This document shows, piece by piece, positions 5,302-31,462 of a DNA stretch of 64,000 nucleotides. The translations under genes and the position numbers were made by a program. The notes under the pieces are model-generated. The model worked only from the letters and a program-made list of their open reading frames with translations. It did no database searches and was not told the DNA's origin. Where the stretch lies: the NCBI RefSeq assembly GCF_014131695.1, contig NZ_CP036346.1, forward strand, positions 2,976,001 through 3,040,000, read 5' to 3'. How positions within the stretch are numbered: position 1 is the first letter of the stretch; the number at the start of each line of letters is the position of its first letter. The DNA comes from Thomasclavelia ramosa DSM 1402. Its GTDB lineage: Bacteria > Bacillota_I > Bacilli_A > Erysipelotrichales > Coprobacillaceae.

Positions 5302-6650
5302 GAAAATTTCTCCTCTATTTTGGTGACAACGTCTTTTAATTTCATTCCATTTGAGCCCTTCAATAAGACAACGTCATCATTTTGTAAATTATTCTTTAAA
5401 TAATTTACCACTTCTTGATTATTATTACAATAATAAATCTCTGCCATCCCTGACAAAGCAGCACTATCGCTCATAAACTTAGCTTCTCGGCCAACCGCAA
5501 CTAACACATCAATTTGTTTTTCCGCTACATATTTACCAACACTTCGATGCAATTGCTCGCTGAATTCGCCCAATTCTAACATATCCGCTAATACAGCTAT
5601 TTTTCTACGCGAATACGTAGCCAATACGTCAATACTTGATTTCATTGAATCTTCACTAGCATTATATGTGCCATCAATCAAGGTAATGTTGTTTTTTAAT
5701 TCAATTACATCCATCCGTTTTTTAGTTAATTCAAATTGACTAATTCCTTGAATACATTTTTCCATTGGAATTTCTAGATTTATTCCAATCGCAATCGCAA
5801 CAAGAGCATTTAAAACAAAATGATTCCCCGGTACTGGGACAACAACTTGATAGACCTTCCCATTATAATTGATTGTAAATTCACTATGATCATCCATTAA
5901 AATAACTTTTTCAGCTTTAAAAACAGCAGCGCAATCAACACCGACTTTAACAACCTTGAAATTATCAAATCGAACCGTTGACAGCATATCATTATCACCA
6001 TTAATTACTAATGTACTGCCGTCACTCATTCCCGCAACAATTTCTAATTTTGCTTTTAGAATATTTTCACGACTTCCTAATTCTCCAATATGTGCTGTTC
6101 CAACATTAGTAATCGCGCTAATATCCGGACAAGCAATTCGTGATAACTCTTCCATTTCATTAAGATGATTCATACCCATTTCTAAAATCATCACTTCCTC
6201 ATCTTTTAATCTCAAGATTGTCAATGGCAAGCCAATATTATTATTATAATTACCTTCTGTTTTCAATGTCTTATACTGCTGTTTAACAACACTATAAACC
6301 ATATCACGTGTGCTTGTTTTACCCACGCTCCCAGTAATTCCAACAACTTTGACCTTGCGATGTTTCCGTAAATAATGAGCCATCTTTTGCAAAGCTTTTA
6401 ACGTATTATCTACTAAGATAACAACATGCTTATCATCTTCAATCAACCGATCAGTAATTATAGCGCTGGCACCATTTGTAAATGCACTTTCAATAAAATC
6501 ATGGCCATCATAGCGTTCACCAATAATTGGAATATACATCATCCCGACCTCAGCTTGACGACTATCTTGGCTAAAACCTGTTATTTCCATTGTTTCATCA
6601 CCACTAATAAGTTTCCCACCGGTAGCAATTACTATCTCACTTACTTTCAT
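5298..6650 (-). CDS. murF: UDP-MurNAc-tripeptide--D-alanyl-D-alanine ligase
   Basis: MurF adds D-Ala-D-Ala to the UDP-MurNAc tripeptide, the last cytoplasmic step of peptidoglycan precursor synthesis. The 450-residue protein shows the Mur-ligase order: an amino-terminal UDP-binding domain (FSQDSRQAEVGMMYIP), the ATP loop GITGSVGKTSTRD (about residue 104), EGNYNNNIGLPLT, LEMGMNHLNEME, and the carboxy-terminal domain with IDGTYNASEDSMK and LADMLELGEFSEQLH. Its stop overlaps the ddl start by four bases. It begins nine bases after the upstream zinc-ribbon gene and may be cotranscribed with it. Confidence 0.96.
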   Translation of the reverse strand: MKVSEIVIATGGKLISGDETMEITGFSQDSRQAEVGMMYIPIIGERYDGHDFIESAFTNGASAIITDRLIEDDKHVVILVDNTLKALQKMAHYLRKHRKVKVVGITGSVGKTSTRDMVYSVVKQQYKTLKTEGNYNNNIGLPLTILRLKDEEVMILEMGMNHLNEMEELSRIACPDISAITNVGTAHIGELGSRENILKAKLEIVAGMSDGSTLVINGDNDMLSTVRFDNFKVVKVGVDCAAVFKAEKVILMDDHSEFTINYNGKVYQVVVPVPGNHFVLNALVAIAIGINLEIPMEKCIQGISQFELTKKRMDVIELKNNITLIDGTYNASEDSMKSSIDVLATYSRRKIAVLADMLELGEFSEQLHRSVGKYVAEKQIDVLVAVGREAKFMSDSAALSGMAEIYYCNNNQEVVNYLKNNLQNDDVVLLKGSNGMKLKDVVTKIEEKFS

Positions 6651-6659
6651 TTCATCCCC

Positions 6660-7895
6660 CTAGAACTCATTACCTTTAATCGTTGGTTGATTTTCATCAT
6701 CTAAAATATGGCGCTTCCCATCAAGACCAACAATTTCATATCCAATCACACTATCTGAGTTTCCTTTAGTTAACACCAGCAGCTTATCACCTACAACCTC
6801 AAATGTCAGACTGCCTCCAATATCCATCGTATATAACTTCTTTTTATCTTTTCCATCAAGATCCATCGTATAAATAATATTCTTATCTTGAATAACTAAT
6901 TTCTTCTCAACCAGGTTCACTAATGATAAATTATTACTTTCATAAATAACTTTACTTTGTCCTTCTAAATCACTTTTAACTAGCCCATCATTATTTATAT
7001 AATATAAATATTCACCATCATAAGTATAAACATTAGTATTATTGGCAAGATTCTTCTTGTCGCTGCCATCCAATGCAATCGAAACTAATTCATTATTTTT
7101 ATTAATATAAAAAATTCTACCTTTTTCCTCATCAACAACAATACTATAAGAAACCTCATCACTAATCTTATGATCCTGATTTGTCTCTAATTCAAGACAA
7201 TGAATTGTTTCACCATCACTATCATTTTGATAATAGACTTTATCACCAAGATTATGTACATAATATACATTCTTTAATAAAATATCTTCTGCTTTTGTCT
7301 TTTTATCCATTCGAATATAATCATTATTTTCATCAAGATAATAATACCACTGCTCATCTTCACTAAAAACAGTAACTGCTTGTTCCAAAACAAGTTCGCG
7401 ATTATTAAAACTACGATCATATTTCAATAATTCAGAATTCATCATTAAATAAACAGCATTATCATTAACATAACTAATCCCTAAATAATTAATATTTGTC
7501 GCTTGACTATATTTACCTGTATTTTTATTGATTGATATTTTACTATCACTATAATCATTAGTGATTGTGTTTGAATTATCATTCTCTGCCAGCTTAATCG
7601 GATTATTAATAACATATTGACGCATTACTGTCGTCACTACAATTAAAACAATAAAAACAGCCCAAATTTTCTTACTACGCCAATAATTTTGCGCTGATTC
7701 ATTAGACTTAAGCAATGTTTGTTCAGTCTTATCAGCTGCAATAAACTCATCGACTTTTTCAGGTTCAATAATCTGTTCTTCCTTTATAATATCTACTTCT
7801 TTATCTAACCCTACCGGCGTTCCGCAAACAGGACATCTTTTTTCATGTTCTAATAATCGCGCTCCACATTTTCTACATCTTTTAATCTTTTCCAT
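6660..7895 (-). CDS. Zinc-ribbon, single-pass membrane protein with large propeller-like outer domain
   Basis: This 411-residue protein has three parts. A zinc ribbon (Cys7, Cys10, Cys21, Cys24) and an acidic linker are followed by one membrane helix at about 77-95 and then about 310 residues. The outer part contains repeats of the form YLYYINNDGLVKSDLEGQ, IFYINKNNELVSIALDGSD and IIYTMDLDGKDKK, as in DUF5050-like beta-propellers. With the zinc ribbon inside the cell, the repeat domain would lie outside. It resembles the next gene upstream in architecture. It ends nine bases before murF, which hints at a link to wall synthesis. A sensor or scaffold role is a guess; no enzyme motif is visible. 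Confidence 0.75.
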   Translation of the reverse strand: MEKIKRCRKCGARLLEHEKRCPVCGTPVGLDKEVDIIKEEQIIEPEKVDEFIAADKTEQTLLKSNESAQNYWRSKKIWAVFIVLIVVTTVMRQYVINNPIKLAENDNSNTITNDYSDSKISINKNTGKYSQATNINYLGISYVNDNAVYLMMNSELLKYDRSFNNRELVLEQAVTVFSEDEQWYYYLDENNDYIRMDKKTKAEDILLKNVYYVHNLGDKVYYQNDSDGETIHCLELETNQDHKISDEVSYSIVVDEEKGRIFYINKNNELVSIALDGSDKKNLANNTNVYTYDGEYLYYINNDGLVKSDLEGQSKVIYESNNLSLVNLVEKKLVIQDKNIIYTMDLDGKDKKKLYTMDIGGSLTFEVVGDKLLVLTKGNSDSVIGYEIVGLDGKRHILDDENQPTIKGNEF

Positions 7896-7965
7896 TTAGT
7901 CACCTACTTTAATGCCTACATTTTACCATATCACCAAAGTAAAAAAAAGCGTGTTATTAGCGTAA

Positions 7966-7997
7966 AAGAAAAGACTTCGCTTCAATAAGCTTAGTCT
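7966..7997 (-). terminator. Terminator after the 448-residue zinc-ribbon gene
   Basis: On the minus strand AGACTAAGCTT pairs with the AAGC..AGTCT side and is followed by TTTTCTTTT. The stem starts in the stop codon of the upstream gene. Confidence 0.65.
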
Positions 7998-9342
7998 ATT
8001 CTTCTTCATTATTATTCAATTTAGCGATAGCCGTATCATAAAAATCATTTATATACCACTGCTTTAAATACTCATCACCATTTCCTGTACTATACACAAT
8101 ATAATTGCCTATTACATTAAATACAGTTACATCATAATCAATCGATACAATATGCCCATCACTAGTCATTAAATCATCATCATAGTTAGTATATACAATT
8201 GTATTATTTGTAACGATATAATTATTAACCTCACCTTCAACAAGCAGTTCATCATTTTCATCAGCAATACTATAACAATGTACGCCTTGATAATCTTGAT
8301 AATAAAGCAAATCTCCACTCACATAAATTTTCCCAGTACTAGATAAATTAAATTGTGATAATTTATTTCCGGCCAAATCAATAGCCTGAATATAATCATG
8401 TTCAATTGTTGTATAAAAAACTAAACTATCTTGCATGTCATAACTATAATCTGAAATTTCATCGCTTATGATTTTTATTGATGTTGCACTTACCTCATCA
8501 TATATAAACAGTCCCTCTTCATCATACTTAGTATATAGGAACTTATTTTTATCTATTGGTAATACATTATCCATTTCAAAAAGGGCTGTCAATTCACCAC
8601 TTTTCATATCATAACGTGCATATCTTCCATACTGTTCATAGTAAAGATAGTCATCAGTACTATAAATATACCTTTCTCCGTCATCTACAAGCGATTTAAA
8701 GTTACTAAAATTCCGTTCTGTTTGATATATTTGATAATCCATCCCAAAATAAATATTTGAATCCGTTAAAAAAGCATAACCACCATTTTTTAAATTTCCC
8801 TCTTGCGTTATACTGCTATTACTATCAAATAATTGTAATGTTGATAATTCTTGATAATCCCGTTGATCATTCGAATTTTTAAAAATTTGCCCGAAAATAG
8901 TTACTCCTGCAATCAATATCACTACAATTCCAACTATAATATTTCTTAGTTTTTCTTCATTATTAGCAGCCTTCTTTTTTATGATTGGAAAGCCCATGCT
9001 GTTAATTCGCTGTCTAGCTTCTTCTAAACGTTGTTTGATTTCATTATTGCTTGATTTGTAATCATACATCTCTTGTTGGTGGTAAACATGGCTTTTTTCA
9101 CTATGTTTATCGCAGTCTTTATTATTTGTTGAATTATTTATGTTAAAACTACTGGCGTACTTCTTAGTGACATCAGTCTTCTTTTCATACTTTGTTGGAT
9201 TCCCACAATTAGGGCATCGTGGTTGACCAAAATGTATTGCCGCTCCACAAACTGAGCAATGACTTATCTTCCCCTGACGATGACCACATAACGGACATTT
9301 TAAACTATTTTTATACTCATTTCCGCAATTATCACATCTCAT
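7996..9342 (-). CDS. Double zinc-ribbon, single-pass membrane protein with propeller-like outer domain
   Basis: This 448-residue protein carries two zinc ribbons (Cys3/6/16/19 and Cys29/32/43/46). A charged, probably helical stretch, one membrane helix at about 131-153 and a roughly 295-residue outer domain follow. The outer domain has repeated Tyr/Asp-rich strands such as YIYSTDDYLYYEQYGRY, GDLLYYQDYQGVHCYS and DGHIVSIDYD. It looks like a divergent relative of the following gene, so the pair probably arose by duplication. A terminator separates them, so they may be transcribed apart. Function is unknown; a surface sensor or binding protein with a cytoplasmic zinc head is the simplest reading. 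Confidence 0.72.
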   Translation of the reverse strand: MRCDNCGNEYKNSLKCPLCGHRQGKISHCSVCGAAIHFGQPRCPNCGNPTKYEKKTDVTKKYASSFNINNSTNNKDCDKHSEKSHVYHQQEMYDYKSSNNEIKQRLEEARQRINSMGFPIIKKKAANNEEKLRNIIVGIVVILIAGVTIFGQIFKNSNDQRDYQELSTLQLFDSNSSITQEGNLKNGGYAFLTDSNIYFGMDYQIYQTERNFSNFKSLVDDGERYIYSTDDYLYYEQYGRYARYDMKSGELTALFEMDNVLPIDKNKFLYTKYDEEGLFIYDEVSATSIKIISDEISDYSYDMQDSLVFYTTIEHDYIQAIDLAGNKLSQFNLSSTGKIYVSGDLLYYQDYQGVHCYSIADENDELLVEGEVNNYIVTNNTIVYTNYDDDLMTSDGHIVSIDYDVTVFNVIGNYIVYSTGNGDEYLKQWYINDFYDTAIAKLNNNEEE

Positions 9343-9424
9343 TGTACCTCACCCCCTATTAATTATATTGTACCATGCCCCTATTTAGAGTCAATCAGCC
9401 AAATAATATAAATAATTTTTATCA

Positions 9425-9450
9425 AAAATAAAAAGATACTGTCGTATCTT
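9425..9450 (-). terminator. Terminator of the Gfo/Idh/MocA gene
   Basis: The minus-strand stem AAGATAC, loop GACA, GTATCTT is followed by TTTATTTTT, just past the stop codon. Confidence 0.75.
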
Positions 9451-9451
9451 C

Positions 9452-10468
9452 TTACTTACACATTTTAACTCCGGTTTCTAATATTTCCATTTGCAATAAA
9501 GTTTGTTCATCTTTGACCCGAGGTTCCTTACCCTCAATAATACTTTCATATAAGCCATCAAAAACATTTCCATAATCCCCTACTTCAGAGATGACTTTTT
9601 CTTCATGAAAAACACCTGCATCATCATAATACGATAACGTTCCATAATCTTCAGGACGATCAATTCCAAAATTTGGTGACCCCGGCATATAAAATAACTT
9701 GAGGTGTTCTTCTTGACGATCTTTTGTCGCTTTAACAAAGCATCCTTTATCACCATAAACAACAAAACTAGGACGTTCTTTTACTCTAAAATAACTTGAC
9801 TTTACTGAAACTTTAAGTGTTCCATAATATAGATCCAAATCAAAATAATCATTCATTCGTCCTGATCCTAATAATTGTCTTACATCATAATGAATCTTTT
9901 CAGGTTTACCAAAATAAGAAATTACTTGATCTAAAGTATGACATCCATGACCATATAAATATCCATTGTACCCAACATATTCATGAACATTTAGTGGTAT
10001 TTCCGGACGATAATAGTCATAATGCATTTCTACTTCTAATAAATTACCTAATTTTCCACTTTCGATCACTTTTTGAACTGTTAAAAAATCAGAATCATAA
10101 CGACGGTTTTGATAGCATTGCACTAATAACCCTTTTTCTTTAGCTAATGCAAATATTTCTTTAGCTTCAGCACTATTTTTCATAAAAGGCTTTTCAACCA
10201 AACAATTTTTACCATGTTCTAAAACCATTCTAGCATACTCATAATGACTATCATGACGAGTGCAAACACTAATCAGCTGAATCTCTGGATCGTTTAATAG
10301 ACTATCTAAATCATCAGTATAATTTATTCCTGCAACACGTGACCAATCATGTTTATTTAAATTTCGAGCATAAATAGTTTTTACTTTAATATTTTTTCTT
10401 GTCAGTACAAATGGCAATTGATAACGATTAGTACTTTTACCATTGCCAATAAATCCCATTGTTAACAT
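9452..10468 (-). CDS. Gfo/Idh/MocA-family NAD(P)-dependent oxidoreductase
   Basis: This 338-residue dehydrogenase has an amino-terminal Rossmann fold (MGFIGNGKSTNRY), the family catalytic motif LVEKPF (about residue 93) and a carboxy-terminal substrate domain with HYDYYRPE and GHGCHTLDQVISYFG. Such enzymes oxidise or reduce sugars, inositols and related polyols. It closely resembles the oxidoreductase at 16110-17126 (shared NRRYD, HYDY and KGCF/KGSF stretches), so the two are paralogues. AAGGAG lies six bases before the chosen ATG. It stands alone between terminators; the substrate is unknown. Confidence 0.9.
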   Translation of the reverse strand: MLTMGFIGNGKSTNRYQLPFVLTRKNIKVKTIYARNLNKHDWSRVAGINYTDDLDSLLNDPEIQLISVCTRHDSHYEYARMVLEHGKNCLVEKPFMKNSAEAKEIFALAKEKGLLVQCYQNRRYDSDFLTVQKVIESGKLGNLLEVEMHYDYYRPEIPLNVHEYVGYNGYLYGHGCHTLDQVISYFGKPEKIHYDVRQLLGSGRMNDYFDLDLYYGTLKVSVKSSYFRVKERPSFVVYGDKGCFVKATKDRQEEHLKLFYMPGSPNFGIDRPEDYGTLSYYDDAGVFHEEKVISEVGDYGNVFDGLYESIIEGKEPRVKDEQTLLQMEILETGVKMCK

Positions 10469-10553
10469 AATCTTCTCCTTCTACTTTGATATATCATATT
10501 GTACTATATTCTAATCATTAATTATATTTTTTACGATAATTGAAAAGATGATT

Positions 10554-11474
10554 TTAAACAACCATATTAATAACCAAACATAATAACGGAATTGTAAGTA
10601 ATGATAGCGCTGTTGATAAAAAGACAATTTCTACTGCCAAATTTGAATCTCCATCATACTTCTCAGCCAAAATTGCTGTCGTACTTCCTGCTGGCATTCC
10701 CGCCAAAACTGTTGCTACTGCAGTTACTAATGGTGGTAGATTAACTATTGCACAACTAAATAAGACCAATAAAGGAATTAAAATCAAACGGATAAAACTA
10801 TAGTAGAGGGTCAATCTATTTATAACATCTCTAATTTTGATTTCTGCCAAGATTCCACCTATTACAATCATTGATAAAGCCATCGTACAATTACTAAGTG
10901 ACTGGATTGATACTTTTAAAAAACTTGGTAATTGAATTTGGCCAATCATAATAAACAGGCCAATAAATACTGCGATAATGCAAGGATGTGTAATTACTTT
11001 CTTAATAACATCTTTACCTTTAGCATTAGTAAAACATGCAACCCCACCAGACCACATTACAATTCTTTGGGGAATTAAATAAATGGAAGCAAATAATAAT
11101 CCATCTAATCCATAAAGGCCTTGAATCAAGGGTGAGCCCATAAATCCAGCATTGGAGCAGATCGTTCCGTATTGTAAAACACTTTGTTGTCGTTTTGTTG
11201 CCTTAATAAAGAAATACTTTCCAAATACTTGGCAAGCAAACTGAATAATAATCGAAACAATCAAAATTGTTAGACCACTCTTGATGATTTGAGTATCCAT
11301 TTTAATCATAAAAGAGTAAATAATATTAGCCGGCAGTACAATATATATTACTAAATCCGTCAAGCTCTTTCGATGCTCTTTAGAAATAATATTTGTCTTT
11401 CTTAAAATATATCCAATTATCATTAAAATAAATATTTCAAATTGTAAATCCATTAAATTATTAAAATCAACCAC
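10554..11474 (-). CDS. AEC-family (auxin efflux carrier-like) transporter
   Basis: The 306-residue membrane protein has about ten hydrophobic segments arranged as two five-helix halves. NIISKEHRKSLTDLVIYIVLPANI near the amino terminus (read as KSLTDLVIYIVLPANI) is the usual AEC signature, and the carboxy half has AGMPAGSTTAILAEKY. Bacterial members move organic acids such as malate; the substrate cannot be deduced here. The start is GTG, five bases after AGAGGTG. It is a single gene, divergent from the GIY-YIG gene. Confidence 0.88.
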   Translation of the reverse strand: MVDFNNLMDLQFEIFILMIIGYILRKTNIISKEHRKSLTDLVIYIVLPANIIYSFMIKMDTQIIKSGLTILIVSIIIQFACQVFGKYFFIKATKRQQSVLQYGTICSNAGFMGSPLIQGLYGLDGLLFASIYLIPQRIVMWSGGVACFTNAKGKDVIKKVITHPCIIAVFIGLFIMIGQIQLPSFLKVSIQSLSNCTMALSMIVIGGILAEIKIRDVINRLTLYYSFIRLILIPLLVLFSCAIVNLPPLVTAVATVLAGMPAGSTTAILAEKYDGDSNLAVEIVFLSTALSLLTIPLLCLVINMVV

Positions 11475-11586
11475 AATAACACCTCTTTGAAGATATCTTA
11501 AACTAATTTTCTTGACACGTCATCTAAAACTTACCATTATTCCTATAATTAGTTATAATATAAACAATAAAAGTAAGGGTGAAATA

Positions 11587-11832
11587 ATGAAAACAAACTA
11601 CGTCTATATCGTCAAATGTCAGGATAATACTTTCTATACAGGCTGGACAACTGATCTAGTAAAGCGAATCAATGCTCATAATCATGGCAAAGGTGCAAAA
11701 TATACCAAAGCTCGTCGCCCCGTTGAACTGGTTTACTTTGAGGAGTATACTGAAAAAAGCCTTGCGTTGAAACGGGAATACGCTATTAAGCAAATGACAC
11801 GTAAAGAAAAAGAATTATTAATCAACAGTTAG
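11587..11832 (+). CDS. GIY-YIG nuclease-superfamily protein (UPF0213/YhbQ type)
   Basis: The small 81-residue protein is essentially one GIY-YIG domain: YVYIVKCQDNTFYTGWT, then RINAHNHGKGAKYTKARRP and a final LALKREYAIKQMTRKEKE. The start at 11587 is chosen because GGGTGA lies just upstream; an earlier in-frame ATG at 11512 would add 25 residues outside the fold. Single-domain proteins like this are widespread in Bacillota, and nuclease activity is not well established. The variant YIV/YTG in place of GIY/YIG is usual for this subgroup. Confidence 0.92.
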   Translation: MKTNYVYIVKCQDNTFYTGWTTDLVKRINAHNHGKGAKYTKARRPVELVYFEEYTEKSLALKREYAIKQMTRKEKELLINS

Positions 11833-11906
11833 CATAGGCTAAGTAATTTCTTTGGAAATTAAAGAATAACGTGTTATACTAGATTCATATAGAAAGAAGG
11901 CAAAAT

Positions 11907-12779
11907 ATGAAATTAAACCGAAATGATTTATGCTGGTGCGGCAGTCAAAAAAAATACAAAAAATGCCATCTAGCATTTGATGAAAAATTAGAGCAATTAA
12001 AGCAGCAAGGAAAAAAAATTCCAACCCATAAAATGATAAAGACGCCTGAGCAAATTGAGGGAATTAAAAAAGCCGCAGTAATAAACTCAGGTTTATTAGA
12101 CTATATTGAAGCAAATATCAAAGTTGGAATGACAACTGAAGAAATTGATGTTATGGCAAAGGAATATACTGCCAAATATGGAGCAGTTTGTGCTGATTAT
12201 CAATATATGGGTTATCCAAAACATATTTGTGTCTCGATCAACGATGTTGTTTGTCATGGTATTCCTAATGAGCAAACTATTTTACAAGAAGGTGATATTG
12301 TAAATGTTGATGCTACAACCATGCTGAATGGTTATTATGCCGACGCTTCTAGAATGTTTATGATTGGTAAAGTTTCTAATGAAGCTAAAAAACTAGTCAG
12401 CGATACAAAAAAGGCTTTAGAACTCGGTATGGCTAGTGTTATCCCCTATCAAAGTTGTGTTGGCGACATTGGTAAAGCAATCGAAACATTTGCTAAAGCT
12501 ATGGGTTATAGTGTTGTTAGAGAATTTTGTGGTCATGGTGTTGGTTTAGCGATTCATGAAGATCCTTATGTTTTCCATTTTGAGCCAAATGTGCCTACTG
12601 TTACCCTTGTCCCAGGAATGGTCTTTACAATTGAACCAATGTTAAATCTTGGTGGTCGTGAAGTATATGTTGATGAGTCAGATGAATGGACTGTTTATAC
12701 TGATGATGAATCACTTTCAGCACAATGGGAGCATACGTTGTTAGTGACTGAAGATGGTATTGAAATTATTTCAAAATAA
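11907..12779 (+). CDS. map: Methionine aminopeptidase type I with SEC-C zinc motif
   Basis: This enzyme removes the initiator methionine from nascent proteins in the cytoplasm. The 290-residue protein begins with a SEC-C type zinc motif (Cys9, Cys11, Cys20, His21), a common extension of gut Bacillota enzymes. The catalytic core then shows all five metal ligands: Asp residues in VNVDATTMLNGYYADASRMF (each side of the central loop), His in GHGVGLAIHEDP, Glu in FTIEPML and Glu in WEHTLLV. AGAAGG precedes the start. It is probably a second or main housekeeping copy; no ribosomal-protein context is present. Confidence 0.95.
   Translation: MKLNRNDLCWCGSQKKYKKCHLAFDEKLEQLKQQGKKIPTHKMIKTPEQIEGIKKAAVINSGLLDYIEANIKVGMTTEEIDVMAKEYTAKYGAVCADYQYMGYPKHICVSINDVVCHGIPNEQTILQEGDIVNVDATTMLNGYYADASRMFMIGKVSNEAKKLVSDTKKALELGMASVIPYQSCVGDIGKAIETFAKAMGYSVVREFCGHGVGLAIHEDPYVFHFEPNVPTVTLVPGMVFTIEPMLNLGGREVYVDESDEWTVYTDDESLSAQWEHTLLVTEDGIEIISK

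Positions 12780-17847: not shown

Positions 17848-17850
<3 letters not shown>
17821..17850 (-). terminator. Terminator of the TIM-barrel/GH1 operon
   Basis: AAGATGTCT and AGACATCTT form a perfect 9-bp stem overlapping the GH1 stop codon. A T run follows on the minus strand. Confidence 0.88.
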
Positions 17851-20276
<2,426 letters not shown>

Positions 20277-20356
20277 CTTTTTTCTCCTTATATCTATTTT
20301 CTTACAACTAAATCTTAATTTAAAAAGTAGTCTAAAAAAATCATATATAGATATTT

Positions 20357-20371
20357 TGTAATTAAATTTCA
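20357..20371. promoter_or_regulatory. Predicted RpiR-family operator 3
   Basis: TGTAATTAAATTTCA fits the TGNAATTNAATTTCA pattern and lies between the divergent TIM-barrel/GH1 operon and the RpiR gene. Confidence 0.65.
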
Positions 20372-20387
20372 AAGATATAAATAATTA

Positions 20388-20402
20388 TGAAATTTAATTT
20401 CA
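20388..20402. promoter_or_regulatory. Predicted RpiR-family operator 4 (perfect palindrome)
   Basis: TGAAATTTAATTTCA is a perfect dyad about the central T and the best copy of the motif in the window. It starts 31 bases from operator 3, much the same spacing as operators 1 and 2. Confidence 0.72.
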
Positions 20403-20419
20403 AAAATATCATTAGTAGT

Positions 20420-20435
20420 GAGAAAACGTTTTCTC
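20420..20435. promoter_or_regulatory. Candidate catabolite-responsive element (cre)
   Basis: GAGAAAACGTTTTCTC is a perfect palindrome with the AAACGTTT core bound by CcpA/LacI-family proteins. It lies in the divergent promoter region of the RpiR gene and the GH1 operon, which is where carbon catabolite control would be expected. Confidence 0.55.
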
Positions 20436-20494
20436 TATGTCTATTAATATGTTAAAATATAAGTATAAATAATCCCTAAAAAGGAGTGCATAAA

Positions 20495-21271
20495 ATGATT
20501 CGTGAATTAATCGATAGCATTAAACTGACAAAAAAAGAACAAGTTATTTCCGAATATTTAGAACAAGAGCCTGATTGCGTGCTTCAATATAACGCTAAAG
20601 AATTAGCTGCTTTAATCAAAGTTAGTGCCCCCACCCTTATTCGCTTTGTTCAAAAATTAGGATTTAAAGGCTATAGTGATTTTCAAGTGACTTACACCCA
20701 AGAAAAAACAATGTATGATCAAATGAAAAATATACGGATTGATTCAAAAAGTTCTATTCGTGATGTAATTGAAACCCTACCTGCAATATATGACCATGTT
20801 TTTAAAGAAACTCGAAAACTAACTCGTTTTGAATCGTTTGTTCGAACGATAAATTATATGCTGCAAGCTAAACAAATTGATTTTTATGCCAATGACAATA
20901 ATTATTCAGAAGTTCAATCTGCCTGTTTAAAACTAAATACCATTGGTATCAAAGCACAATGCTTTAACACTTTGAATACTGCCTATATTGATAACATCGA
21001 TCCTCGAGACATCTTAGCTTTCGTAGTTAGTCACTCGGGAAAAAATCAAACAATGGTCGATGCCGCATATGAACTCCGAAAAAAACGAATCCGTGTCATC
21101 GCAATTACAGGAAAAATCGACCCAACTTTAGAACTTGTATGCAATGAAGCCTTGTATATTGATTCATCCTCACATCATCTGCCTCATCATATTATGCTAT
21201 ATGGATTATCGATACATTATATTTTAGATATTCTCGTTACCTCACTTTATTACAAAAAATACAAAGAATAA
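20495..21271 (+). CDS. RpiR/MurR-family transcriptional regulator
   Basis: The ATG at 20495 is chosen because AAGGAG ends eight bases upstream; a GTG at 20486 overlaps that site and is unlikely. The 258-residue protein has an amino-terminal RpiR helix-turn-helix (TKKEQVISEYLEQ, KVSAPTLIRFVQKLGFKGYSD in two helices). A carboxy-terminal SIS sugar-phosphate-binding domain follows (IDFYANDNNYSEV, DILAFVVSHSGKNQ, RVIAITGK). It is divergent from the TIM-barrel/GH1 operon. Four operator copies place the Gfo/Idh pair in the same predicted regulon. The inducer is probably a sugar phosphate. Confidence 0.9.
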   Translation: MIRELIDSIKLTKKEQVISEYLEQEPDCVLQYNAKELAALIKVSAPTLIRFVQKLGFKGYSDFQVTYTQEKTMYDQMKNIRIDSKSSIRDVIETLPAIYDHVFKETRKLTRFESFVRTINYMLQAKQIDFYANDNNYSEVQSACLKLNTIGIKAQCFNTLNTAYIDNIDPRDILAFVVSHSGKNQTMVDAAYELRKKRIRVIAITGKIDPTLELVCNEALYIDSSSHHLPHHIMLYGLSIHYILDILVTSLYYKKYKE

Positions 21272-21276
21272 TAAAC

Positions 21277-21305
21277 AAGACCTTACGCTCCCGTAGGGTC
21301 TTATT
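21277..21305. terminator. Bidirectional terminator between RpiR and VOC genes
   Basis: AAGACCTTACG and CGTAGGGTCTT form an 11-bp stem with one wobble pair and a CTCC loop, flanked by A-rich and T-rich sides. Confidence 0.85.
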
Positions 21306-21784
21306 TAACCGACATTTCCTTGATGCTGCAAAGATAAATCAGTATACTGCATAATTTCAAATTTATTTCCATCCGGATCATGAATCCACATTTGCCAAGT
21401 TTCTGATTGACCTTTATTAGGCTCAATATCAATTTCGATACCAGCTTCAATCAGCTCTTTTCGTGCTTCAAAAATATCATCAACCATTAAAGCAAAGTGT
21501 GAATACCCTAGTCTAACATCTGGCTTTTCATGTTCTAGCTGGTTATCTGCTTTATTAAATAATTCCAAATATTGTCCCGGGGCTAACTCAATAAAAATAT
21601 AAGCAATCCCATCTGGATCAGTAATTGCTTTTTTAGCCCAAGCTCCACGGCTTTTTTGTCCAAGATAAGCCCCATAACGCATAATTATTTTAGCTTTTAA
21701 TCCTAATTTATTTTCATAAAAATCTCTCATTTTATCCATCTGATCAGTATAAAATGAAAGATGCATCACTTCATTAAATTTCAT
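21305..21784 (-). CDS. VOC/glyoxalase-family protein
   Basis: The 159-residue protein from the ATG at 21784 (AGGT upstream) is a single vicinal-oxygen-chelate domain. MHLSFYTDQMDKMRDFYENK is the first half and LGYSHFALMVDDIFEA with WMWIHDPDGNKFEIMQY the second. The carboxy motif DPDGNKFE(I) is the glyoxalase I signature. Metal ligands in this fold would be His8, the Glu in YIFIELAPGQYLE, His in YSHFAL and Glu in FEIMQ. Detoxification of methylglyoxal is possible in a sugar-phosphate-rich cell, but many VOC proteins do other chemistry. An earlier in-frame start would add 15 residues. Confidence 0.85.
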   Translation of the reverse strand: MKFNEVMHLSFYTDQMDKMRDFYENKLGLKAKIIMRYGAYLGQKSRGAWAKKAITDPDGIAYIFIELAPGQYLELFNKADNQLEHEKPDVRLGYSHFALMVDDIFEARKELIEAGIEIDIEPNKGQSETWQMWIHDPDGNKFEIMQYTDLSLQHQGNVG

Positions 21785-21804
21785 TTTTAACCTCGCATTT
21801 TTAT

Positions 21805-21881
21805 AAAAAGGTCTGTTTAAATAAAACAATCAAAGCTATTTAAACGGAAAAATAGATTTCATGACTATCTAAACAAACCAT
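21805..21881 (-). terminator. Long-stem hairpin after the broken PTS IIB gene
   Basis: On the minus strand GGTTTGTTTAGAT (21869-21881) can pair with ATTTAAACAGACC (21810-21822), followed by TTTTTAT. It would end the PTS/GH1/manA transcript. Confidence 0.6.
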
Positions 21882-21890
21882 TTTTATTAT

Positions 21891-22207
21891 TTATTTTCCA
21901 CCTAATTTTAAAGCTGTATCCAAGACCTTAGCACCATTCATTGTCCCATAATCCTGCATATTAATTATTTCAGCCGGTTTATCAAGAAACATTTTTTTAA
22001 CATTCTTTAATTCATTTTAACATTCTTTAATTCATAACGTACTTGTGGTCCTAATAAAATATCATCAGCTGCTTCACCATATTTTTCAATTTGTCCAACG
22101 GGATGGGCTTCGATTTGAAATTCAATTTCTTTTGTTTCGGCAGTCTCTTTCATTCTATTAACTAATAGACTTGTTGACATTCCCGTTGCACACACTAACA
22201 AAAACAT
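21891..22207 (-). pseudogene. PTS lactose/cellobiose-class IIB broken by a 20-bp tandem duplication
   Basis: The gene begins as a normal IIB with the phospho-acceptor Cys in LLVCATGMSTSLLVNRM and DDILLGPQVRYELKNVK. The 20-base unit GAATTAAAGAATGTTAAAAT/A is then present twice in tandem, which shifts the frame and gives a stop at 22007-22009 after 66 residues. Removing one copy restores a frame that continues to 21891 with IINMQDYGTMNGAKVLDTAL, matching the intact IIB at 31163-31462 throughout. The break removes the last third of the domain. It is the last gene of the IIC / zinc-ribbon / manA / GH1 operon. Confidence 0.9.
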
Positions 22208-22229
22208 TCATCATTATTCCCCCTCTAGC

Positions 22230-23648
22230 CTAATATTCAATATTATTCTCTAAATCATCACCATTGGTAGCAATACATTTTTTATACCAGTAAAACGATT
22301 TTTTAGGATAACGTTTTAAATCTTTTAAGTCTTCAAAATCACGATCAACATAAACAAATCCATAACGTTTTCTAATTTCTTTATGACTACTTAAAAAATC
22401 AATTGGACTCCAAGCTAAATAACCAATTAAATCAACACCATCATGTTCAACAGCCTGTTTAATTGCTTTGATATGCTGTTGATAATAATCAATACGTTGA
22501 TCATCATATACTTTTTGATCAATTAACTGTTCATCAATTCCAATACCATTTTCTACGATAAACAATGGTTTATGATATCGATGATAAAAATCAATTAACG
22601 AATATCGTAATCCCTGTGAATCAATTTGCCAGCCCCACTCATTTGCTTGATAATAAGGATTTTTAAGATTGCGCTGATCAAATAAAATAGCATCCTCTAA
22701 AGTAATCACATCATCAATTTCATCAAATGAAGCCTGAACACTACTGCGATAATATGAAAATGCTAGATAATCCAGTTTGGTCGATGCTGATTTAATTACC
22801 TCTTCATCAGCTTTATTTAGACTGATTGTTATATTTCTATTTAGTGCATACTGCTTAAAATAATCTGGTAGTTCTCCTTGACACATCGTATCAAAAGCAA
22901 AATAGTTGTGTAACTTATTTTTAAAATCTGCAGCAATAATATCACTACTTTTACAAGTGAGTGGATAGAATGGTGCATGCCCAATCATACCACCTACTTT
23001 GGCTTGTGGATCAACACGTTTAATTACCTCTACAGCACGAGCATGTGCAATTTGTACATTAATATTTAATTGTACGAACATCTCTGCTTTAGACATTCCA
23101 TCTGGTAAATAAGCTCCTGCCACCAGATCACTTTGACAATAAGCTAAATTAATTTCATTATATGTCAGCCAGTATTTAACTTTTCCTTTCAGTCTAGAAA
23201 CTACCGCTTCAACATGGCGAGCATAAAAGTTAATTACTTCTTTGTTCATAAACCCATTATAGTTTTTTAACAGATAATCCGGCATATCAAAATGAACTAA
23301 AGATACTACTGGTTCAATTCCTTTTGATAAAAGATAGTCGACCATCTTTTCATAATAAGCTAACCCTGCTTCATTAGGACTTTCTTCATTACCAAGCGGG
23401 TGAATCCTTGACCATACTACTGAAAAGCGATATGCTTTATATCCCATTTGAGCCATGTAATCAATATCTTCTTGATAATGATGATAATGATCAGTAGCTA
23501 CTTTTGTATCACAAAACATCGGTTCAATCCCGGGTTCTGGAGTAACTATTAGAGTGTCATAAACATTTAACCCTTTACCATCTTCTAAATATGCGCCTTC
23601 AGCTTGAACGTTGCTTAAAGCACCGCCCCATAAAAATTCTTCTTTCAT
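22230..23648 (-). CDS. GH1 6-phospho-beta-glucosidase
   Basis: The 472-residue GH1 enzyme has FLWGGALSNVQAEGAY at its start, acid/base Glu in LTYNEINLA and nucleophile Glu in LFIVENGIGID. The end has KRYGFVYVDRDFED with KKSFYWYKK, including the lysine/tyrosine pair of phospho-glycosidases. It begins 11 bases after manA ends and precedes the broken IIB. It would hydrolyse a phosphorylated beta-disaccharide delivered by the IIC at 25586. It is one of six GH1 genes here and is distinct from the 17848/29660 pair at its amino terminus. Confidence 0.92.
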   Translation of the reverse strand: MKEEFLWGGALSNVQAEGAYLEDGKGLNVYDTLIVTPEPGIEPMFCDTKVATDHYHHYQEDIDYMAQMGYKAYRFSVVWSRIHPLGNEESPNEAGLAYYEKMVDYLLSKGIEPVVSLVHFDMPDYLLKNYNGFMNKEVINFYARHVEAVVSRLKGKVKYWLTYNEINLAYCQSDLVAGAYLPDGMSKAEMFVQLNINVQIAHARAVEVIKRVDPQAKVGGMIGHAPFYPLTCKSSDIIAADFKNKLHNYFAFDTMCQGELPDYFKQYALNRNITISLNKADEEVIKSASTKLDYLAFSYYRSSVQASFDEIDDVITLEDAILFDQRNLKNPYYQANEWGWQIDSQGLRYSLIDFYHRYHKPLFIVENGIGIDEQLIDQKVYDDQRIDYYQQHIKAIKQAVEHDGVDLIGYLAWSPIDFLSSHKEIRKRYGFVYVDRDFEDLKDLKRYPKKSFYWYKKCIATNGDDLENNIEY

Positions 23649-23659
23649 GATCTTCTCCT

Positions 23660-24586
23660 TTATCTCGTTGTCATCATAATAGTCATATGACCATCAAAAA
23701 CAATTTTGTTTCCTTGCGGAATCAAGAAATTATCACCGACTTTAATAGGCACTCCATCAACAGTCCCAGAGCCCCTCACAACCGTCGCCAACTGATAATT
23801 ATCATGATAATAGTGATTCTCCCCTGTAAGTTCTAGTTTTGTTACAGTAAATGAGTCATTATCAATAAAAACAGTTTGTTCACCATTTTCTAATGATGTC
23901 ATTACAGTCGTAAGCTTATTTTCCATCTCCTTTTGATCATAAGACAAACATTCAATTGCTTCTTTTAAATGCAATTCACGTTCATTGCCATTTGCATCTT
24001 TACGATGATAATCATAAAAACGGAAAGTAACATCTGTAGCCTGTTGGATTTCATAAACAACACTCCCCTTTTTTAATGCATGTAATAATCCAGCCGGAAG
24101 ATATACAAAATCATCAGGATGGACTTCTAAATGACGAATCAGTTTATCCCACTGTTCTTCCTTGATATAGTGAGTCAAATCAGCTTCATCTTTGGCATTG
24201 TGTCCATAAACAATCTTGGCTCCTGGCTCAGCTTCAATAAAATACCAAGCTTCATTTTTGCCTGCTTGATAACCTAACTTTAAAGCCGCTTTTACATCAG
24301 GATGAACTTGGATACTTAAATCATCTTCTGGTCCTACTAACGAAATAATAACCGGAAACTGTTCATTAGGATGACCAAATAATTCTTGATGCTCCTGCCA
24401 TAATTCTAATAAAGTTTTTCCTTGATATGGTGCAGTCTCACAAATATTTGAAGCCCCTTTTTGGCAGCTAAATGACCAAGCCTGTCCAACTCCATCCGGA
24501 AAATCATGATAGCCAAAATAATCTTTAACTAACGTATGTCCCCATATAGCCAAGCGCGGGATCGGTTTAAAAAATAATACACCCAT
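23660..24586 (-). CDS. manA: Class I mannose-6-phosphate isomerase
   Basis: This zinc enzyme interconverts mannose-6-phosphate and fructose-6-phosphate. The 308-residue length and motifs match short Gram-positive ManA: LSIQVHPD with KNEAWYF and VIYGHNA-type spacing (IVYGHNAKDEADL). The metal-site and active-site stretches LPAGLLHALKKGSVVYEIQQ and FRFYDYHR follow. It is placed between a terminator hairpin and a phospho-beta-glucosidase. A mannose-containing beta-glycoside could feed both enzymes (inference). The zinc-ribbon genes and PTS IIC lie upstream in the same direction. Confidence 0.92.
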   Translation of the reverse strand: MGVLFFKPIPRLAIWGHTLVKDYFGYHDFPDGVGQAWSFSCQKGASNICETAPYQGKTLLELWQEHQELFGHPNEQFPVIISLVGPEDDLSIQVHPDVKAALKLGYQAGKNEAWYFIEAEPGAKIVYGHNAKDEADLTHYIKEEQWDKLIRHLEVHPDDFVYLPAGLLHALKKGSVVYEIQQATDVTFRFYDYHRKDANGNERELHLKEAIECLSYDQKEMENKLTTVMTSLENGEQTVFIDNDSFTVTKLELTGENHYYHDNYQLATVVRGSGTVDGVPIKVGDNFLIPQGNKIVFDGHMTIMMTTR

Positions 24587-24601: not shown

Positions 24602-24625
24602 AAAAAATAGGCATTAATATGCCTA
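24602..24625 (-). terminator. Terminator inside the IIC-manA-GH1 gene string
   Basis: TAGGCAT, ATTA loop, ATGCCTA followed by TTTTTT on the minus strand, overlapping the stop of the 154-residue zinc-ribbon gene. manA and GH1 would be reached only by read-through or by their own promoter. Confidence 0.8.
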
Positions 24626-25087
24626 TAGTGTAAACAAAGCAAATAAACCAATTACGGTTACAAAGATTGATAAGCAATTAGCTAATGAGACAATATTAGC
24701 TTTGATTCTAAAACCATATTTACTATAAATTAAATTATTTACTTGTTTTGCCTTAGTGACATGATAATCACCTAACAAAGCAAAAACAACGATTACGATT
24801 CGCATTGGTAAACTTGTTCCAATTCCATCACCAAAATAATTCCATGGTACGATAGCTAAAATAAGTGCTAAAACTGAAGCAAATAAAGCTGCACCAATAT
24901 ATGGATTTTTTTCATCTCGATGCTTTTCCATTCGTTCAATATCTTTTTTAGACATCTTTTGTTTTATTTTATTATCATTATATTTTTGAGCATAACTACG
25001 TTGTTCAACTTTAATTACTTCACTACCACAGCTATCACAAAATTTTGCAGAATCTTTAAGTACAGCACCACATTTTCGACAATACAT
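24623..25087 (-). CDS. Zinc-ribbon membrane protein
   Basis: The 154-residue protein begins with a zinc ribbon (Cys3, Cys6, Cys17, Cys20 from the ATG at 25087, with AGGTGG upstream). A basic linker (KIKQKMSKKDIERMEKH) and two to three membrane helices (about 64-84, 93-110 and 130-152) follow. It has no recognised catalytic motif. It lies 16 bases from a similar zinc-ribbon membrane gene. Both are held inside a PTS-linked gene string, an unusual setting for this protein type. Function unknown; a membrane-bound regulator or assembly factor is possible. Confidence 0.7.
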   Translation of the reverse strand: MYCRKCGAVLKDSAKFCDSCGSEVIKVEQRSYAQKYNDNKIKQKMSKKDIERMEKHRDEKNPYIGAALFASVLALILAIVPWNYFGDGIGTSLPMRIVIVVFALLGDYHVTKAKQVNNLIYSKYGFRIKANIVSLANCLSIFVTVIGLFALFTL

Positions 25088-25103
25088 AATATCCACCTGC
25101 TCT

Positions 25104-25523
25104 CTATTTCAAAATAACTTGTGAAAAATTAACTAAACTAACAAAACCACTAATAACGATCGATACCCAAGCATAATTTTTATTACCATTTGGTTCGAAT
25201 CCTTTTTTTCGATCCTGTTTATCTACCCGCAATGACAATACACCACAAACGATTGCCCCAAGATAAGCAAACGAACTAAGAATATATGGAATCTTTACAT
25301 TTCCACCAACTGCACTAAATATTGTTCCTGCGATAAAATCCAATCCAATTAAACCGATAAAAAATAGGAGGATCCCTAATTTAGCCCAGCTATTTTCACG
25401 GGGATTCTTTTTTAACTTTGATTTGTTTTTTTGTTTAAGTGCATCTGCACTAATTTCTTTACCGCAATGATAACAGAAAGCTGAATCTTGTGGTATTTCC
25501 TTGTGACAATATGGACATTCCAT
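25104..25523 (-). CDS. Zinc-ribbon membrane protein
   Basis: This 139-residue protein has a zinc ribbon (Cys3, Cys6, Cys17, Cys20), a lysine-rich linker (about 28-46) and three hydrophobic helices (about 49-69, 78-98 and 117-137). It is similar in plan, though not in detail, to the following 154-residue protein. An AGGAGG site precedes the ATG. A strong hairpin separates it from the PTS IIC gene upstream. Homologues of this sort are common in Bacillota genomes, usually without assigned function. Confidence 0.7.
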   Translation of the reverse strand: MECPYCHKEIPQDSAFCYHCGKEISADALKQKNKSKLKKNPRENSWAKLGILLFFIGLIGLDFIAGTIFSAVGGNVKIPYILSSFAYLGAIVCGVLSLRVDKQDRKKGFEPNGNKNYAWVSIVISGFVSLVNFSQVILK

Positions 25524-25585: not shown

Positions 25586-26917
25586 CTATGCCTCTGCAGT
25601 ATTCATTTTAGCAACTTCAGCTTTTTCATAAGCTTTCCAGAATGGATAGAAGATAACTAATCCGATTGCTAGATTGATAAATACAATAATGATACCACCA
25701 ACTGAACCACCAGCAGATAAATAACCTAAGATTGGTGAAGGTGTTGCCCAAGGCAATGACATATACATTTTTCCTACAAAACCAATACTAGTTAACCAAT
25801 AAGTTAAAGCCCCTGTTAATGTATGAGTTAAAATAAATGGAATTAATAGGAAACCATTCATTACTACTGGTAACCCAAACATAATTGGTTCAATAATACA
25901 GAAAATTGCAGGTGGTAAACAGATTGTTGCTAATGGTTTCAAATGAGGTAATTTCTTACTAGACATAAACATGTAAATTAAAATTGGCCAGAAAGATGAT
26001 ACCCATTGAGATAGACGACATAAGTTTGGTGTCCAAACATATGGTAAATCTTTAACTAATGTTCCAGCAGTAAAAGCAGTGTTGTTATCAGCAAGCCATT
26101 GATTTGTAAAGACATTAGTAACTGCACCAGTAATATTGTCACCATGTAGACCACACATCCATAGCAATGCTGATAAGAATTGCTGCAAGCTATAAACAAA
26201 GACATTGTCTGCCGCTCCTAAGACTGGTAATAACATTTCTCCAACCAATACTGGAATATTGATTCCGGCTAAAGTTCTAATTCCCCAACATACAATCGTA
26301 ATAAAGAAATAAGGAATAATTGCTGAGAAACTATCTGAGATAGCAGGTGGTACTGAATCAGGCAATTTGATTACAATATTCTTTTTTAAACATATATTAA
26401 TAATATTAATTGCAATTGCTCCAGCGATCATTGCTGTAATCAAACCTGAACCACCCCAATAAGTACTTTCGAAAGCACTGCCTCCAGCACTTAAAGTTCC
26501 ATCTTTAGCAGTGATTACTAAATTACCAACAGAATCATAGTTTAATAACATAAAAGCAAAGAATGCTCCGACTGCCCCTGTAGTCTTATTAAATCCTTTA
26601 ATTTCTGCATATTCTCCCCCGAAAGCGATAATAATGTAGATAGCCATAATTCCCATTGATAAACTATTGACTAATGCAAGATCATCAGCCCAAGGCTTTA
26701 AAAATGGAATTAATGCTTTAGTTGTCAATCCACCATCTGAACAGAATAAGTATACTACTAAGAAGATTGACCCAACCATTGTTACTGGTAATGCTGCGAC
26801 CATCCCATTTACGATTGCTCGTACAAATGGGATCTGTCCAAATCTTGTCATTGGTCCAGCGATTACATCAACTTTTTCCAATACTTTGTCCATGAAGGAC
26901 TTTTTTTCAGTAGACAT
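25586..26917 (-). CDS. PTS cellobiose/lactose-class IIC permease
   Basis: The ATG at 26917 has GGGAGG ahead of it; the earlier in-frame start adds eight residues and overlaps that site. The 443-residue permease has the eight-plus-helix layout of the family. Conserved stretches include KLPDSVPPAISDSFSAIIPYF (read as PDSVPPAISDSF), LLWMCGLHGDNI with its His, LPHLKPLATICLPPAIF, and EPIMFGLPVVMNGFLLIP with the active-site Glu. It would import and phosphorylate a beta-disaccharide together with IIA and IIB partners. Its own IIB (21891-22207) is broken, so the 31163 IIB may serve. Confidence 0.92.
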   Translation of the reverse strand: MSTEKKSFMDKVLEKVDVIAGPMTRFGQIPFVRAIVNGMVAALPVTMVGSIFLVVYLFCSDGGLTTKALIPFLKPWADDLALVNSLSMGIMAIYIIIAFGGEYAEIKGFNKTTGAVGAFFAFMLLNYDSVGNLVITAKDGTLSAGGSAFESTYWGGSGLITAMIAGAIAINIINICLKKNIVIKLPDSVPPAISDSFSAIIPYFFITIVCWGIRTLAGINIPVLVGEMLLPVLGAADNVFVYSLQQFLSALLWMCGLHGDNITGAVTNVFTNQWLADNNTAFTAGTLVKDLPYVWTPNLCRLSQWVSSFWPILIYMFMSSKKLPHLKPLATICLPPAIFCIIEPIMFGLPVVMNGFLLIPFILTHTLTGALTYWLTSIGFVGKMYMSLPWATPSPILGYLSAGGSVGGIIIVFINLAIGLVIFYPFWKAYEKAEVAKMNTAEA

Positions 26918-26953
26918 ATTTTTTCCTCCCTTAATTTTCAAAAACGCTTTAAA

Positions 26954-27167: not shown

Positions 27168-29072
27168 ATGAAACTAAAAAAAAACGAATTAAAAATTATT
27201 CAATTATTATTAGCTTCACCAGACTACATTTCAACCTACGATATCGCTACCTCGACAGGAATTCCTCGTCGTTTAGTGCGTGATGAAATTAGTAACGTTA
27301 GAGTTATTTTGTCATCATTAAACCTTAATTTATTATCCAAGCCTTCAAAAGGTTATTTTATCGAAGGAAAGTCTTCTAAAGATTTAAGCCGATTGCAAAA
27401 CATTATTAATGATAATGAGCGTGATGAAAATAATGTTTTTCCAACTTTACCAAAAGATCGTAGAAATTATATTGCAAAAAGATTAATTGAAGAGGCCAGC
27501 TACATTAAATTAGAAACTTTCGCTAATGAATTATTAGTAAGTCGACCAACTGTTGCTAATGATGTCCTTCTTTTAAAAAAAGATATTCATAAATATGGTT
27601 TAACTTTAATTCAAAAACCAAATTACGGTATTAGTATTCAAGGAAGTGAAATTTCAAAAAGAAAAGTCTTAGCTGACTGGGTTTTTGAAAACTTAACACA
27701 ATCAGATATGTTTGGTGATTTCTTGGATGCCTATTTTAATTCTCCAGATTATCAAATCATTGAGATCATTAATCAGCATCAAATCATTATGAGCGATATT
27801 AGTTTGATTGACTTTTTAATTTGTTTCTCTATCGCTATTGCAAGGAATACGATCAATCATACGATTGATAGCCCAATCGCTAATTTCGAGCAATTCAAGG
27901 ATCGTTTTGAATATGCTACTGCTAAAGAATTAGGAAAATATGTTCAAGAACGTTTTAAAATTGATTTCAATGAATATGAGATTCAAAATATTACTATTTT
28001 ATTAATCTGTAAAAGGTCATCACGCGGCTTATCTGCTTCTCATGATGATAACGTAATTACCATTGCTAATGAAATTCTAGCGAGAATCAAAGCAGAAACA
28101 TTAATTACTTTTGATACTGATAAATTATTTAGAATCCTATCGCTATATATTGAAAATACTTTGATCAGACAAGCATATGTTGAAAAAATCCGTACCCCGG
28201 TATATGAAAATATTCAATATGAATATCCTCTACCATATCATTTAGCATCTATTGCATCAGCAACGATTCAACAACACTCCAAGATAAAGTTATCACGTAG
28301 TGAATTATCGGCATTTACAATACTCTTTAATAATGCTATTAACAATCAAAACAAGAAAAAGAAAAAAGTTTTATTGATCAATTGTATGAGTGGTTCTATG
28401 TTTACACTACATCGTTATCGGATTGAAACTGAATTAGCAGCACAATTAGTTATTACTAAATATACTCAATATTATCGAATCAATGAGGAGGACTTAAGTA
28501 ATTATGACTTAATTATTTCTTCAGTACCGATTCGTAAACAATTATCGATTCCTGTAATTAATACCAGTTATATGATTACTAATGATGATATCATTAGAAT
28601 CAAAAGCTATTTATCTTATTTATTCAATGATGAAGACCTTGTTTATTATTTTCATCCATATCTATATTCATCCAATGTTAAAGTCAAAAGCAAAAAGGGC
28701 GTCGCCTCAACTTTCTATCATTTATTAACATGTCTTTATCCAAATCTAAAAGATACTTTCAAATACGAGTTAAATAAACAGCATCGTTATACTTTGAACA
28801 CTTTCAATAATGTGATTGGGCTAATAAAACTAAATAAACCAATCAATGCCAATAACAATATCGTCGCAATTACTTTAAATGAACCAATCCTGTTTGATCA
28901 GCAGCAAATGCAGGTCATTATCCTCTTTTCATGTTTAGACAATAATAATATTATGTATAATACTTTATTTAATACGCTGAAAAATGTTGCTAATAATGAA
29001 CTTGATGTAAAAAAATTATTATCTCACTTATCGTATCCAGAGTTTCTCAGCGTAATCAAAAACAACAAATAG
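27168..29072 (+). CDS. PRD-domain transcriptional activator (LicR/MtlR type) with degenerate EIIA
   Basis: The 634-residue regulator has, in order, two amino-terminal helix-turn-helix domains (about 5-60 and 80-150), two PTS-regulation domains (about 175-400), an EIIB-like domain (LLINCMSGSMFTLHRYR, about 403) and an EIIA-like domain (about 500-634). LicR/MtlR proteins activate sugar operons according to phosphorylation by HPr and EII. Here the EIIA part lacks the usual histidine: the segment that should hold it reads NVIGLIKLNKPI. The EIIB cysteine is kept. It is divergent from the PTS IIC operon and probably activates it. Confidence 0.88.
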   Translation: MKLKKNELKIIQLLLASPDYISTYDIATSTGIPRRLVRDEISNVRVILSSLNLNLLSKPSKGYFIEGKSSKDLSRLQNIINDNERDENNVFPTLPKDRRNYIAKRLIEEASYIKLETFANELLVSRPTVANDVLLLKKDIHKYGLTLIQKPNYGISIQGSEISKRKVLADWVFENLTQSDMFGDFLDAYFNSPDYQIIEIINQHQIIMSDISLIDFLICFSIAIARNTINHTIDSPIANFEQFKDRFEYATAKELGKYVQERFKIDFNEYEIQNITILLICKRSSRGLSASHDDNVITIANEILARIKAETLITFDTDKLFRILSLYIENTLIRQAYVEKIRTPVYENIQYEYPLPYHLASIASATIQQHSKIKLSRSELSAFTILFNNAINNQNKKKKKVLLINCMSGSMFTLHRYRIETELAAQLVITKYTQYYRINEEDLSNYDLIISSVPIRKQLSIPVINTSYMITNDDIIRIKSYLSYLFNDEDLVYYFHPYLYSSNVKVKSKKGVASTFYHLLTCLYPNLKDTFKYELNKQHRYTLNTFNNVIGLIKLNKPINANNNIVAITLNEPILFDQQQMQVIILFSCLDNNNIMYNTLFNTLKNVANNELDVKKLLSHLSYPEFLSVIKNNK

Positions 29073-31162: not shown

Positions 31163-31462
31163 TTACCCTTCAATCAATTTTAAAGCAGTATCCAAAACCT
31201 TATTACCATTCATCATTCCATAATCTTGCATATTAATAACTTCAACCGGCTTATTTGGATATTTAGCCTTAACATTCTTTAATTCATAACGCACCTGTGG
31301 GCCTAATAAAATCACATCTGCAGCATCTCCAAATTGATCGATACTCCCAACTGGATGTGCTTCAATATTAATCCCGATTCCTTTTGCTGCAGCCGCTTCG
31401 TTCATTCGATTTACAAGTAGACTTGTTGACATTCCAGCTGCACATACTAACAAAATATTCAT
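31163..31462 (-). CDS. PTS lactose/cellobiose-class IIB subunit
   Basis: This intact 99-residue IIB has the phospho-Cys in LLVCAAGMSTSLLVNRM (Cys7) and the family stretch ADVILLGPQVRYELKN, then VINMQDYGMMNGNKVLDTAL. It passes phosphate from IIA to the sugar at IIC. No IIC or IIA lies in this operon, while the IIC operon at 25586 has only a broken IIB. The most economical reading is that this subunit serves that IIC. Confidence 0.93.
   Translation of the reverse strand: MNILLVCAAGMSTSLLVNRMNEAAAAKGIGINIEAHPVGSIDQFGDAADVILLGPQVRYELKNVKAKYPNKPVEVINMQDYGMMNGNKVLDTALKLIEG

Follow-up and report, generated by a model that had tools for sequence, protein, structure and literature searches.

An operon on the minus strand of a 64,000-nucleotide stretch of the Thomasclavelia ramosa DSM 1402 genome (hereafter the window) closes with a PTS IIB gene that contains the same 20 bp twice in a row and cannot be read through in a single frame. 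Is this a gene held in a reversible off state, a gene that has been lost, or a gene that only appears to be broken? The broken copy sits 22 bases downstream of the GH1 gene, and the operon and its regulator comprise the following features.

27168 to 29072, plus strand: divergent PRD-containing regulator adjoining the IIC operon (Pfam PF00874, PF08279, PF05043)
25586 to 26941, minus strand: PTS IIC of the lactose/cellobiose family, intact (Pfam PF02378; TIGR00410 above cut-off)
23660 to 24586, minus strand: type I mannose-6-phosphate isomerase (manA-like), intact (Pfam PF20511, PF21621)
22230 to 23648, minus strand: glycosyl hydrolase family 1 (GH1), intact, the operon's last intact gene (Pfam PF00232)
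21891 to 22214, minus strand: PTS IIB pseudogene of the lactose/cellobiose family, whole (tblastn in two frames; conserved start position in relatives)

Between IIC and manA, at 24623–25523, lie two small zinc-ribbon-like membrane protein genes that are kept family-wide. The span given for the pseudogene begins at the first of three candidate ATGs and ends with the second frame's stop codon, and it contains the following parts.

22007 to 22207, minus strand: 66-aa open frame, the N-terminal two thirds of IIB (Pfam PF02302; ORF list)
21995 to 22035, unit TTTTAACATTCTTTAATTCA on the plus strand: exact tandem duplication, two 20-bp copies plus one base (TRF; self-match scan)
21891 to 22001, minus strand: remaining C-terminal portion of IIB, read in the second frame, KMFLDKPAEIINMQDYGTMNGAKVLDTALKLGGK (tblastn; translation)

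TRF reported one array at 21995–22035, with a period of 20, 2.0 copies and 100% matches. When an intact IIB of the same window (31163–31462) was used as tblastn query, its residues 3–65 aligned in one frame and residues 60–96 in another, at 75–76% identity (76% for residues 60–96), and the second frame stopped at 21891, the same endpoint as in the intact protein. Because the intact IIB aligns to both parts in two frames, the first-pass annotation was correct in describing the IIB that closes the IIC/manA/GH1 operon as broken by an exact 20-bp duplication. The family assignment follows from the PF02302 match together with the N-terminal phosphorylatable Cys motif. The 66-codon frame, opened by the ATG at 22207 and ended by a stop inside the second repeat unit, matched PF02302 at profile positions 3–63 of 90 (E 6.8e-14) and in translation keeps the active-site Cys motif CATGMSTS, whereas the last third of the domain is absent from it. 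Both the catalytic Cys motif and the C-terminal motifs are present in the locus, which is otherwise well preserved apart from two indels. A complete ORF of about 100 aa is nevertheless absent, since it would need two frames and, in addition, has to cope with an extra base at the start.

This extra base, which had been missed at first, is a second lesion that can be read directly from the DNA, as can the duplication. It lies within the following features.

22219 to 22225, minus strand: putative ribosome binding site GAGGGGG (sequence and positions; role inferred)
22200 to 22211, minus strand: second lesion, a single additional base after the conserved start ATG (22211) and ahead of the LLVC motif (relatives' start regions compared with the window; ATG positions)

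Close relatives share a common start layout, typically ATG AAT ATT TTA TTA GTA TGT; the corresponding sequence in the window, ATGAATGTTTTTGTTAGTGTGT, has one more base, which none of the intact relatives compared carries. GAGGGGG is 4 nt from the ATG at 22214, 7 nt from that at 22211 and 11 nt from that at 22207, so that the first two are best placed behind it. In translation, these two lead into MNVFVSVCNGNVNKSIS and meet a stop within 20 codons, and the IIB frame is opened only by the ATG at 22207, at the cost of one residue. A change in the 20-bp array alone would therefore yield no gene with the usual start. The extra base may be harmless if translation begins at 22207. It had been claimed that removal of one copy gives a complete protein matching the intact IIB to its end; the match downstream of the array stands, but a normal gene would result only if the later ATG is used.

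A full-length product might also be made from the present sequence if slippage over the duplicated segment, by the ribosome or during transcription, joined the two frames, giving a IIB with seven extra residues. Adding a single A within the AAAA stretch of the first repeat unit would achieve this. This run of four A is the only usable one, however, as the A7 run is reached only after the stop and is of no help, and an insert of this kind occurs in none of the relatives compared. We regard such recoding as scarcely credible.

We also considered whether the strain's true sequence carries a single unit and lacks the additional base, the lesions being errors of assembly or sequencing. Such errors do occur, and a related single-contig genome (G009) shows damage to many genes of this cluster: at its locus L103, the GH1, manA, zinc-ribbon, PRD and BglA genes are each split in two frames. 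That so many cluster genes are split in this one assembly suggests sequencing indels there. In the window, by contrast, neighbouring genes of the cluster are intact, which argues against an assembly error, and an error would have had to produce two independent lesions, both in the one redundant gene. A 20-bp duplicate is, moreover, atypical as a read error. An error of either kind is thus very unlikely.

How unusual the duplication is was assessed against simulated and real DNA. Exact tandems with a period of 16–24 were found in none of 200 simulated 64-kb windows (first-order Markov, same dinucleotide composition). The genomic background covered about 549 kb: besides the window itself, five other stretches totalling 85 kb and a further sample of 400 kb. 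Among exact tandems with a unit of 12–200 bp, one was present in the window, none in the 85 kb, and one in the further 400 kb, the last being an in-frame 18-bp repeat; the array at 21995–22035 was the only frame-shifting case in the entire sample. The 20-bp duplication is a rare one-off event and not a habit of this genome, and its two copies point to one mutation event, with no repeat tract.

Whether the loss of this IIB would matter depends on the second copy, which lies 9 kb away.

31163 to 31462, minus strand: IIB gene, intact, in the conserved operon of rpe-IIB-rpiB type (Pfam PF02302, 83.8 bits)

This copy is directly observed to be intact and matches the solved IIBs 4mge, 2l2q and 1iib over almost its full length. 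It has a 90% identical ortholog in another genus (G022), with its linkage conserved in several genera. An intact paralog of the same family is thus present in the same gene cluster as the broken gene.

Gene order was then compared in relatives of the same family. Within the family, 11 other genomes carry a GH1 ortholog at 68–80% identity, and one more carries one at 60%; the ten genera represented include Longibaculum, Candidatus Stoquefichus, Massilimicrobiota and Sharpea. Where enough contig was available, the operon reads as a PRD regulator divergent from IIC, followed by the two small zinc-ribbon-like genes, manA and GH1, after which usually comes a LacI gene on the opposite strand. At none of these loci in the ten genera does an IIB stand directly behind GH1, an absence seen directly in the gene order. 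In most relatives, a close IIB is instead part of the adjacent rpe-IIB-rpiB operon, the counterpart of 31163–31462. Two genomes, G034 (L109) and G039 (L111, Sharpea), keep the IIC operon (IIC 84–87% identical), with no IIB found in the neighbourhood, suggesting that the IIC may accept an IIB coded elsewhere. As appears to be the case in related genera, the intact IIB at 31163–31462 is probably the partner and phospho-donor of the IIC, and the broken IIB is, by gene order, a supernumerary copy absent from its positional relatives.

The origin of this additional copy was approached through sequence searches and gene order. The 66-aa fragment found no match when searched against genome contigs, the same-genus genomes contained distant IIBs only, and an order-wide search of 316 genomes returned no relative closer than about 75%. 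One of the same-genus IIBs (L067, G002:C31) carries a TAG codon in frame close to its C-terminus; the homolog in G005 reads through at this point. The broken IIB does not group with the copy at 31163; its origin by a recent duplication of that copy had a p-AU of 0.086 and was not firmly rejected. Behind the broken IIB (17848–22207), the order glyoxalase, RpiR, U32-like and BglA is like that found after the IIB/rpiB operon in some relatives. Because of this resemblance to the IIB/rpiB flank, the broken IIB may be what a rearrangement left in place of an earlier copy of the cluster. The same genome also holds a diverged second PRD/GH1/manA/zinc-ribbon/IIC cluster (L112, G000:C1:2655000-2672000, positions 5789–12700), adjoining a decayed rpe fragment with in-frame stops.

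We further examined how the broken copy has evolved. Its branch is the longest in its IIB group (0.38, compared with 0.03–0.24 for the other members), and it departs at 5 columns that are invariant in ten other sequences, each of which departs at 0–2; one of the five departures stems from the start indel. This faster protein evolution is a direct observation, and the locus consequently carries more than one inactivating or relaxed-constraint change, namely the second indel, the five departures and the long branch. Pairwise dN/dS was 0.12–0.22, with dS near saturation, and an excess of third-position changes is present. The third-position excess and the low dN/dS indicate a gene that was translated during most of its existence and was damaged only recently, and its codon usage remains typical of protein-coding genes. 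Being well preserved apart from the two indels, it may have worked until a very short time ago.

These observations bear on the suggestion in the first-pass annotation that the gene may act as an on/off switch. Under this reading, the two-copy state is OFF, and slippage to one copy at a useful rate would turn the IIB, and thus one sugar uptake route, ON in a subpopulation. The unit is indeed exact, its length is not divisible by three, and the remainder of the gene is well kept. There is also precedent, as spontaneous tandem duplications in the pneumococcal capsule genes cap8E, tts and the type 3 locus are described as causing phase variation (Waite 2001, 2003, as cited in PMC4022640). Like the broken IIB, these are exact frame-shifting tandems inside coding genes; in the capsule system as summarized there, however, phase variation was observed and the capsule changes, whereas the present locus has a second lesion and an intact paralog. 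For a nine-base insertion, the same source quotes a frequency of reversion no higher than about 1e-5. In Xenorhabdus lrp, tandem duplications of 26–116 bp were among the mutations recovered, and none of the phenotypic reversions tested was genetic (PMC6786866). The mutability of simple repeats, in turn, rises with repeat number (PMC4235727), and here there are just two units.

Taken with the second frame-changing base at the start, the redundancy with the IIB at 31163, the accelerated protein change and the absence of other frame-shifting arrays from the sampled genome, this makes a switch unlikely, although the array might revert at a low rate, and the suggestion was weakly borne out. The more specific version, in which the two-copy array collapses and re-forms often enough to serve as a contingency switch for one sugar, with translation from the unusual downstream ATG at 22207, is very unlikely.

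The broken IIB is, in our judgement, quite likely a recently inactivated, redundant second IIB at the 3′ end of the IIC-manA-GH1 operon, disabled by the 20-bp duplication and the one-base insertion. We infer the mutational mechanism and the course of events as follows. A single chance event, by replication slippage or template switching, would have copied a 20-bp segment midway along the gene and put it out of frame, and a separate insertion of one base just after the conserved start codon would have changed the frame there. The loss would have been tolerated with the intact IIB at 31163–31462 covering, since that protein is probably the phospho-donor to the IIC. Most likely the broken IIB does nothing now; the 66-aa piece is unlikely to work, as the last third of the domain is absent.

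Set beside the lactose/cellobiose PTS IIB proteins (PF02302, TIGR00853; structures as above), the broken copy belongs to the same family, with recognizable Cys and C-terminal motifs, but differs in its two indels and in having only 66 aa continuous. Compared with ordinary duplicate pseudogenes of carbohydrate uptake genes, it shows the same redundancy, recent frame-breaking indels and faster amino-acid change, with no notable difference. The case looks like an ordinary dying duplicate. Its main use is as a warning that so tidy an exact duplication is easily taken for a switch before the start of the gene, the gene order of relatives and the intact twin have been examined. If reversion should nonetheless prove true, duplication-type phase variation would extend from capsules to sugar uptake, and to gut commensals.
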